Shown here piece by piece: positions 38,583 to 40,777 of a DNA stretch of 42,551 nucleotides. Position 1 is the stretch's first letter. Every line of letters starts with the position of its first letter. Under the pieces are notes generated by a model. It made no database searches. It was given only the letters and a program-made list of their open reading frames with translations, and had not been told where the DNA came from. The position numbers and the translations under genes were made by a program. Origin of the DNA: Thermoplasmata archaeon (lineage in GTDB: Archaea > Thermoplasmatota > Thermoplasmata > Lutacidiplasmatales > UBA184); contig JAKAYL010000013.1 of NCBI GenBank assembly GCA_021809545.1, forward strand, positions 1-42,551. Direction: 5' to 3'.

Positions 38583-40109
38583 TTACCTGTTCCCGGTTGC
38601 GGGCGCAGAACCGGCAAAGTCGGTTCCCGGGGGCCGATCGCGGGGCCCGAGGCGGACGGAAACGAGCTTCTCCTCCGTCATCTCCCGGAGTGCGCGGTCC
38701 ACGCCCTCCCGGCCCAGCCCGCTGGCCCGGACTCCCCCGAACGGCAGCGCATCCCAACGGAGCGTCGTCGGATCGTTGACGTGCACGCTTCCCACCGAGA
38801 GGGCCCGCACGACCCGGAGCGCTTGCCCGAGGTCCCGGGTGAAGATCGATGCCTGGAGACCGTAGCGCGTGGAGTTGGCGAGCTCGATCGCCTCGGACTC
38901 CTCGGAGAAGGTCTGCACGGGGAGCACGGGGCCGAAGGGTTCCTCCTGTACGACCCGGGCATCGGCAGGAACATCGGAGAGCACCGTCGGGGCGTAATAG
39001 AGCGGGCCTGGGGCCTCCGCCACCCGCCGACCTCCGGTTACGAGGTGCGCCCCCTTCTCGAGCGCTTCGCCGACCATGGCTTCCACACGCTCGAGAGAGG
39101 GGAGGTCGATCAAGGGCCCCATCTCGGTGGATTCCTCGAGGGGGGAACCGATCCGGAGCTTCTCGGCGCGCACCGTGAGGGCCCGGAGAAACTCGGGAGC
39201 CAGCTTCTCGGCGACCAGGACCCGCTTGGTGGCCGTGCAGACCTGGCCGGAGAAAGCGAACCCTCCCCGGACAGCCGCGTCGACGGCCTCCGACAGCTGG
39301 GCGTCGTCGAAGACAAGGAGGGCATCCATTCCTCCCAGCTCGAGGAGGACCCTCTTCCCACCGGCTCCCGCCCGTTCGGCCACCTTGCGGCCGACGTCCA
39401 CGGACCCTGTGAATGTGACCAGGCGCACGCCGGGATGGCTCACGAGGGACATTCCGACCTCGGGGCCGCTCCCGAGAACCACGTTGAAGACCCCGGGGGG
39501 AAGCCCACATTCGAGCGCAAGCTGGGCGAGGCGGAGGGCCGTTCCGGAGCCTGGGGAAGCGGGCTTCGCGACCACCGTGTTGCCCACAGCGAGCGCCGGA
39601 GCCACCTTGTGGGAAAGCAGGTTGAGGGGGAAGTTGAACGGGGAGATGGCCACGACCACTCCGAGGGGTTCCCGGAGCGTGAAGAGCATCCGTTCCTCGT
39701 TCCCCTCCGGCAGAGGGTAGGCATCGGCGGGGTACGTTTCGCCTACGAGGTGACGCAGGGCATCGGCCGAGAGCGAGAAGACCGAGGCGGCCCGCTCCAC
39801 TTCCCGGCGGGCTTCCGTGAGAGGCTTTCCTATCTCCTGTGCGATCCTCCGGGCCATCTCCTCCCGCTTTTCCTCGAGGGCATGGGAGATCTTGCGGAGG
39901 ATCTCGGCACGGACGTGTCCGGGTACCTTGCGCCATGCCTCTCCGGCGGTGCGAGCGCTCTTCACGGAGAGGTTCGCTTCCACGGGACCTCCGCGGGCGA
40001 TCTCCCGGTCCGCCGCTCCGGACAGCGGACTGGGCACCGGCAGCGTCTTGCGGGTCTCGGAATCCCGAGAGACGCCGTCGATCAGGTGCTGGAGCGTTTC
40101 GAGTGCCAT
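38583..40109 (-). CDS. NAD(P)-dependent aldehyde dehydrogenase
   Basis: VAISPFNFPLNLLSHKVAPALAVGNTVVAKPAS, VTFTGSVDVGRKVAERAGAGGKRVLLELGGMDALLVFDDA, FSGQVCTATKRVLV, EEPFGPVLPV. Confidence 0.93.
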   Translation of the reverse strand: MALETLQHLIDGVSRDSETRKTLPVPSPLSGAADREIARGGPVEANLSVKSARTAGEAWRKVPGHVRAEILRKISHALEEKREEMARRIAQEIGKPLTEARREVERAASVFSLSADALRHLVGETYPADAYPLPEGNEERMLFTLREPLGVVVAISPFNFPLNLLSHKVAPALAVGNTVVAKPASPGSGTALRLAQLALECGLPPGVFNVVLGSGPEVGMSLVSHPGVRLVTFTGSVDVGRKVAERAGAGGKRVLLELGGMDALLVFDDAQLSEAVDAAVRGGFAFSGQVCTATKRVLVAEKLAPEFLRALTVRAEKLRIGSPLEESTEMGPLIDLPSLERVEAMVGEALEKGAHLVTGGRRVAEAPGPLYYAPTVLSDVPADARVVQEEPFGPVLPVQTFSEESEAIELANSTRYGLQASIFTRDLGQALRVVRALSVGSVHVNDPTTLRWDALPFGGVRASGLGREGVDRALREMTEEKLVSVRLGPRDRPPGTDFAGSAPATGNR

Positions 40110-40133: not shown

Positions 40134-40254
40134 CGGGCCCGCCGGGAGTTTCGAACTCTCCCTCCCACCTCAAGCAGGTTGGGAAGAACAGCCTTTCGAA
40201 CCCGGGTTCAAGGCTCCGGAGGCCTTTGTGATATCCAAGCTATACTACGGGCCC
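40134..40254 (-). tRNA. tRNA-Arg (CCG) with T-loop intron (59/60)
   Basis: Minus-strand exon 1 40254-40195 GGGCCCGTAGTATAGCTTGGATATCACAAAGGCCTCCGGAGCCTTGAACCCGGGTTCGAA; intron 40194-40148 (47 nt); exon 2 40147-40134 TCCCGGCGGGCCCG. Acceptor GGGCCCG/CGGGCCC 7 bp, anticodon arm AAGGC-CTCCGGA-GCCTT, T stem CCGGG/CCCGG. D stem is weak. No CCA encoded. Confidence 0.85.
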
Positions 40255-40271: not shown

Positions 40272-40433
40272 CTACTTGCCTTTCTTCGCTTCGGAGTATC
40301 CGCAGCGGCCGCACGAAAGGCGGGTCTTGTGGATGGCGAGGAACGTTCCCGGTCCGCAGGTCGGGCACTGGGAATGCGTGCGCTTGAGCGCGCCCCCCTT
40401 CGTGTCGTAGAAGCCTACGCGTGCCTTCGGCAT
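40272..40433 (-). CDS. rps27ae: Ribosomal protein S27ae (53 aa, below ORF-track cutoff)
   Basis: MPKARVGFYDTKGGALKRTHSQCPTCGPGTFLAIHKTRLSCGRCGYSEAKKGK, C4 zinc finger. Confidence 0.93.
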   Translation of the reverse strand: MPKARVGFYDTKGGALKRTHSQCPTCGPGTFLAIHKTRLSCGRCGYSEAKKGK

Positions 40434-40435
40434 GC

Positions 40436-40777
40436 TCAGGCCCCCTTCGTCTCGGCGGGGGCGGAGGCCGGCTTCTGACCGGCGGCGCCATCCTTGGAGG
40501 CGAGTCCGTTGCGAACTTGGATATGCCGGCGCACCGTGGTCTTCAGGACCTCGGGCTTGTCGTAGGCATGGATGACCCCGCGGGAAGCTGGAACGCCGTA
40601 GAGCGCTTCCATGTACTCCACCACGATGCGTTCGACGGGGATGGAGGCGGTCTTCGAGAATTCCTTGCGGACCTCGTTGCGCTTCGGAGAGGATTCCCTC
40701 GGATGAGCGATCTCCACGATGTACTCCTTCCGCAGGAGCAGGGGGTTCACTTTCTCTTCGATGACGCGTATCTCCAC
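40436..40777 (-). CDS. rps24e: Ribosomal protein S24e
   Basis: MEIRVIEEKVNPLLLRKEYIVEIAHPRESSPKRNEVRKEFSK. Confidence 0.94.
   Translation of the reverse strand: MEIRVIEEKVNPLLLRKEYIVEIAHPRESSPKRNEVRKEFSKTASIPVERIVVEYMEALYGVPASRGVIHAYDKPEVLKTTVRRHIQVRNGLASKDGAAGQKPASAPAETKGA

Follow-up and report, generated by a model that had tools for sequence, protein, structure and literature searches.

A tRNA-Arg(CCG) gene with a candidate T-loop intron in a Thermoplasmata archaeon, and introns at the same site across its lineage

A split tRNA-Arg(CCG) gene downstream of rps27ae

Towards the end of the window, by which we mean the whole 42,551-nucleotide stretch of DNA analysed here, an arginine tRNA gene with a CCG anticodon lies in two pieces on the minus strand, flanked by a ribosomal protein gene and a gene for an aldehyde dehydrogenase (ALDH). 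The features of this region are as follows.

40254-40134, minus strand: tRNA-Arg(CCG), whole split gene, read directly from the sequence
40195..40254, minus strand: exon 1 (60 nt), with the acceptor 5' strand, D-arm, anticodon arm (CCG), T-stem 5' strand and the T-loop to A59; defined by ARAGORN on the spliced form and by exon identity with congeners (73-74/74)
40148..40194, minus strand: intron (47 nt) at position 59/60, with ends 5' AGGCTG... and 3' ...CGAAAC, containing the hairpin h' and the 3' half of the 4-bp central helix of a bulge-helix-bulge (BHB); defined by empty sites, comparison with congeners and folds
40134..40147, minus strand: exon 2 (14 nt), with T60, the T-stem 3' strand, the acceptor 3' strand and discriminator G73, CCA not being encoded; defined by ARAGORN on the spliced form and read directly from the sequence
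40272..40433, minus strand: rps27ae (30S ribosomal protein S27ae), directly upstream (Pfam PF01599, 55.5 bits)
40436..40777, minus strand: rps24e, upstream of rps27ae (Pfam PF01282, 73.7 bits)
38583..40109, minus strand: ALDH, downstream neighbour (Pfam PF00171, 525.9 bits)

The stop codon of rps27ae lies 17 nt before the tRNA, an adjacency kept in the intron-bearing congeners, and the predicted start of the ALDH gene lies 24 nt past it. An earlier note on this DNA had the sequence, strand and coordinates of the tRNA gene right, and its placement of the gene between rps27ae and an aldehyde dehydrogenase holds, with both neighbours now identified by Pfam. Its assignments of the isotype, the intron borders and position 59/60 are likewise borne out by ARAGORN and by comparative genomics.

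Removal of the intron restores an intact cloverleaf, and ARAGORN calls the spliced 74-mer tRNA-Arg(ccg). The unspliced gene draws no ARAGORN call, either alone or in a scan of the whole window, and the Rfam tRNA model recognises only its 5' part, at 18.5 bits, under the 29-bit cut-off. ARAGORN does not fix the splice site, since a tRNA is often called even when the boundaries of the excised stretch are moved by 2-4 nt; the site is fixed instead by the T-loop consensus and the BHB. Many tested Arg, Asn, Gly, Gln, Lys and Glu tRNA genes are recognised by ARAGORN only after splicing, and ordinary tRNA finders can miss genes split in the T-loop.

The genome assembly that contains the window is 1.96 Mb long and 99% complete. 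A DNA search of it finds this one tRNA-Arg(CCG) gene and no second; the earlier note had named another intact copy as a finding that would count against its reading. The remaining arginine tRNAs of the genome are CCT, TCG and an intron-split TCT. In seven neighbouring genes, CGG is used for 54 of 122 arginines, more often than any other arginine codon. We propose, with a probability of about 95%, that the locus is a functional, single-copy tRNA-Arg(CCG) gene interrupted by a protein-spliced archaeal intron at position 59/60. Observed directly are the anatomy of the gene, its pattern of conservation, the empty sites in relatives, the presence and architecture of EndA and the presence of RtcB; transcription, cleavage and ligation are inferred.

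The T-arm fold and its conservation in relatives

By sequence, the exon-intron borders comprise a 3-nt bulge, a 4-bp helix and a second 3-nt bulge, together with flanking h and h' helices, and the central helix pairs TTCG of the exon with CGAA of the intron. In the precursor, T54-T55-C56-G57 would pair with this CGAA as the last helix of the intron, and the bulges A58-A59^A and A-C^T60 would flank the central helix, so that the resulting 3-4-3 BHB would sit between the T-stem and the intron hairpin. The single two-repeat EndA of the genome would then cut both bulges, and RtcB would join the exons to restore the T-loop TTCGAAT.

Folded without constraint, the T-arm and intron form a nested helix with two 3-nt bulges, at -34.0 kcal/mol compared with -19.9 +/- 3.6 for mononucleotide shuffles. 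The BHB-enforced fold reaches -29.3 against an MFE of -30.7 kcal/mol, which puts the exact 3-4-3 register 1.4 kcal/mol above the MFE; the two differ by a fifth central pair, and thermodynamics slightly favours a 5-bp central helix. In two congeners, G002 and G003, the MFE fold already contains the BHB. The 3-4-3 BHB described in the earlier note is thus upheld by both the folds and the comparative checks.

The earlier note had also suggested looking for the intron in related genomes. Introns with a BHB interrupt the gene at the same base in three congeners (G001-G003), and a fourth (G004) is intronless. Among the carriers, exons are identical at 73-74 of 74 positions, introns at 22-33 of 47-49 (about 45-67%), and the downstream 60 bases at 34-40 of 60-61. 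The first intronic helix reads GGCU/AGUU in the window genome and GGUC/GACC in G001-G003: pairs 3 and 4 have changed on both sides and still pair, and these compensatory changes keep the flanking helix. Such a pattern of divergence is to be expected if selection maintains both the mature tRNA and a fold that can be spliced. We also searched GTDB genomes for the exact exon-1 pattern and read 80 loci. Matches fall almost only in Thermoplasmata MAGs, Candidatus Lutacidiplasma silvani among them, which would place the host in or near the Lutacidiplasmatales. At 76 of the loci the tRNA gene is intact and the site is precisely empty (GGGTTCGAATCCC), an intron is present in two (those of congeners G002 and G003), and the remaining two are truncated at the end of a contig. 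The clade offers a comparison of intron-present and intron-absent genes within one genus.

These comparisons bear on whether the locus might be a pseudogene, a tRNA gene disrupted by a small insertion, with another tRNA such as UCG reading CGG codons. The failure of ARAGORN to recognise the unspliced gene would fit such decay, as would the D-stem, in which only G10-C25 and U11-A24 are clean pairs. The earlier note was right about this weakness, but the doubt it cast on function on that account does not stand, because every intronless ortholog has the same or almost the same D-stem; a weak D-stem conserved in all orthologs does not weaken the case, and we rejected D-stem decay for the same reason. 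A pseudogene would also have to account for exons that are almost invariant among carriers next to diverged introns and downstream flanks, and for the fact that all carriers have the insertion at one and the same base, with a BHB. We consider this explanation most unlikely.

A further possibility accepts splicing and adds that the excised intron then serves as a small functional RNA. The 47-nt hairpin is stable, and some archaeal tRNA introns do contain guide RNAs (the box C/D RNA of tRNA-Trp; PMC4090602). However, no C/D boxes are visible by eye in the window intron, its identity with the congener introns is only 45-49% apart from the helix ends, and most relatives have no intron at all, which makes a second function very unlikely.

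EndA and RtcB in the window genome and its class

The favoured reading, a spliced intron in a working tRNA gene, calls for an endonuclease and a ligase, and the genome encodes EndA and RtcB. EndA is a single 365-aa ORF in which PF02778 and PF01974 each occur twice, in the order N-C-N-C, the PF01974 domains spanning residues 90-175 and 279-356, and it is collinear with the alpha'2 EndA of A. fulgidus. Repeat 2 contains complete catalytic Tyr/His/Lys motifs (FKYGAHF, THAKYLV and VKKSFLL), and repeat 1 has TPSLYWV, which lacks the His. From these features, the enzyme is predicted to be a single two-repeat EndA of the alpha'2 type. Alignment of repeat 2 to M. jannaschii EndA reveals, ahead of the first N-domain strands, no insertion of the size of a specificity loop of the CSL/ASL type, the element whose role has been described for crenarchaeal and ARMAN EndA (PMC6379350, PMC12397907). 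The protein thus probably has no recognisable specificity loop and would fall outside the broad-specificity (alpha-beta)2 and epsilon2 classes. RtcB is encoded as well (PF01139, 554.8 bits).

We queried 30 genomes across the class. EndA has two PF01974 domains in 26 of them, on a single ORF in every case where the two are listed; in three it has one such domain, within an ORF of 289-318 aa, and one genome, a 64%-complete MAG, has none. The single-domain ORFs belong to G127, G144 and G190, genomes of the same class without matches to the 59/60 intron pattern described below. A full two-domain EndA accompanies T-loop introns in the sampled genomes.

The same architecture, one ORF with two N-C repeats and Tyr/His/Lys in the second, characterises the alpha'2 enzymes of Archaeoglobus, Thermoplasma and Ferroplasma (PDB 1R0V/2GJW, 2OHC; PMC8707768), although their best-studied natural substrates are introns at 37/38 and the intron here lies at 59/60. 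The alpha'2 EndA of Ferroplasma, a thermoplasmatan, is homodimeric and cleaves minimal BHB substrates, and in the view of the authors of that work homodimeric forms can cut BHL motifs too (PMC8707768). Both points make T-loop processing by an enzyme of this type plausible.

Introns at position 59/60 in the genome, the family and the phylum

The intron that the earlier note described by itself has many counterparts in this archaeal group. The window genome contains at least four further 59/60 introns, in tRNA-Arg(TCT), tRNA-Asn(GTT), tRNA-Ala(GGC) and tRNA-Gly(TCC). Those of Asn and Ala have a poor central helix, and the BHB motif rule is therefore not strict genome-wide. The tRNA-Asn(GTT) intron occurs in all 8 Lutacidiplasmatales genomes where the gene was found, often with an imperfect central helix despite an EndA of the alpha'2 type.

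A strict-BHB search pattern for 59/60 introns, GGTTCRAAN{15,45}YGAANNTCC, with the reversed pattern as control, matches 88 of 103 genomes of the family, with no match to the control. It matches 235 of 300 genomes of the class, where reversed controls are sometimes positive, and it recurs elsewhere in the phylum. We rejected phylum-wide counts as a census, since AT-rich genomes have a non-zero reversed control and many matches look like chance, and we accepted only sites that splice to a tRNA. After splicing, a tRNA spanning the junction is called at 59 of 64 sites, Gln, Gly, Asp, Glu, Asn, Lys, Arg and Ala among them; this is not an unbiased rate, the sites having been partly picked for visible hairpins, and at sites with a second intron some isotype calls are ARAGORN guesses. 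At the sites read in detail, 4.64 of the first 6 positions are paired between the two ends of the intron, compared with 2.57 +/- 0.14 for shuffles (maximum 2.98 of 1000).

This recurrence speaks to the idea that the interruption is a chance hairpin, or a scar left by a mobile element at a tRNA attachment site, and is not spliced. tRNA genes are common integration sites, and a search of the genome for copies related to the window intron finds none at E<=10, both of which would suit an unrelated insertion. Against this, the exact site and motif are common to dozens of isotypes and genomes, with zero reversed-pattern matches in the family, and without splicing the genome would have no intact Arg(CCG), Arg(TCT), Asn(GTT), Ala(GGC) or Gly(TCC) among the genes found. 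Among the explanations considered, we regard this one as the least probable.

Evidence that such introns may move comes from two families of the same phylum (f35 and f49), in which 59/60 introns of Ser, Glu, Gly, Ala and Arg tRNAs have long stretches of sequence in common (TGCAACTTGC...AAGTTGCNYGAAAA or TGCATG...AAGCATGCYTGAAAA). Near-identical introns occupy this site in different isotypes within single genomes (G370, G403, G342, G400, G374 and G372), and 8 of 9 genomes of these families have a two-domain EndA. The sharing suggests transposition to a single site; tRNA intron transposition has been reported for Thermoproteales, according to the citation of Fujishima 2010 in PMC4033280.

Because the BHB uses the T-loop TTCRA, which is common to nearly all tRNAs, the same intron design can work in any tRNA, and the lineage carries this TTCRA-based design in many isotypes. 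With odds that we put slightly better than even, we propose that 59/60 is a preferred site for portable introns across much of the Thermoplasmatota, at which TTCRA supplies half of the BHB, so that an intron can move from any tRNA to any other, and a loopless alpha'2 EndA removes it. If so, the rule that ties introns outside the anticodon loop to (alpha-beta)2 or epsilon2 enzymes would be overturned.

The window gene itself belongs to a known class of introns. In Crenarchaeota, and in Thermoproteales in particular, non-canonical introns are likewise flanked by a BHB, lie outside 37/38 at sites including the T-loop, are processed by EndA and a ligase, interrupt some tRNAs more than once, and include similar introns transposed between tRNAs (Marck and Grosjean 2003; Sugahara 2008; Fujishima 2010; PMC4090602, PMC4033280, PMC6379350). 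Their EndA, however, is an (alpha-beta)2 enzyme with a specificity loop, whereas the Thermoplasmata described here have a loopless two-repeat EndA and non-canonical introns at 59/60 (the sole site surveyed), mostly with a strict BHB. The permuted tRNA genes of Thermofilum pendens and Cyanidioschyzon (PMC3978253) also have a BHB junction at T-loop position 59/60, but these genes are circularly permuted and tRNA-Arg(CCG) is in normal order. Wetland Asgard archaea (Atabeyarchaeia and Freyarchaeia) resemble the present case in carrying non-canonical introns in uncultivated soil archaea; they belong to another phylum, and introns occur in 92-95% of their tRNA genes (PMC11291895).

What is notable is that a lineage with an alpha'2 EndA is rich in T-loop introns. 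One review states that tRNA introns in Euryarchaeota with alpha4 or alpha'2 (alpha2) EndA are single and confined to the canonical position (PMC4090602), and another that, among archaea with an alpha2 enzyme, Korarchaeum alone has non-canonical introns (PMC4033280); the clade contradicts both statements. Isolated euryarchaeal cases were already known, since non-canonical introns have been described in three thermophilic euryarchaeal methanogens (PMC3218864) and the training of tRNAscan-SE 2.0 included some euryarchaeal examples (PMC8450103). The paper describing Lutacidiplasmatales genomes says nothing of introns (PMC9287336), and our searches of the open-access literature turned up no account of introns in the T-loop of thermoplasmatotal tRNAs.

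Two other loci drew our attention. The fragment G342:C4:38696-39036 has the same intron, 3' exon and 3' side of the anticodon arm as one of the tRNA-Arg(CCT) genes examined and lacks the 5' half; it may be a partial duplicate or possibly a piece of a split tRNA. In the window genome, tRNA-Trp(CCA) has a 94-nt intron of the long type in its anticodon loop, and tRNA-Trp introns house a box C/D guide RNA in some archaea (PMC4090602).
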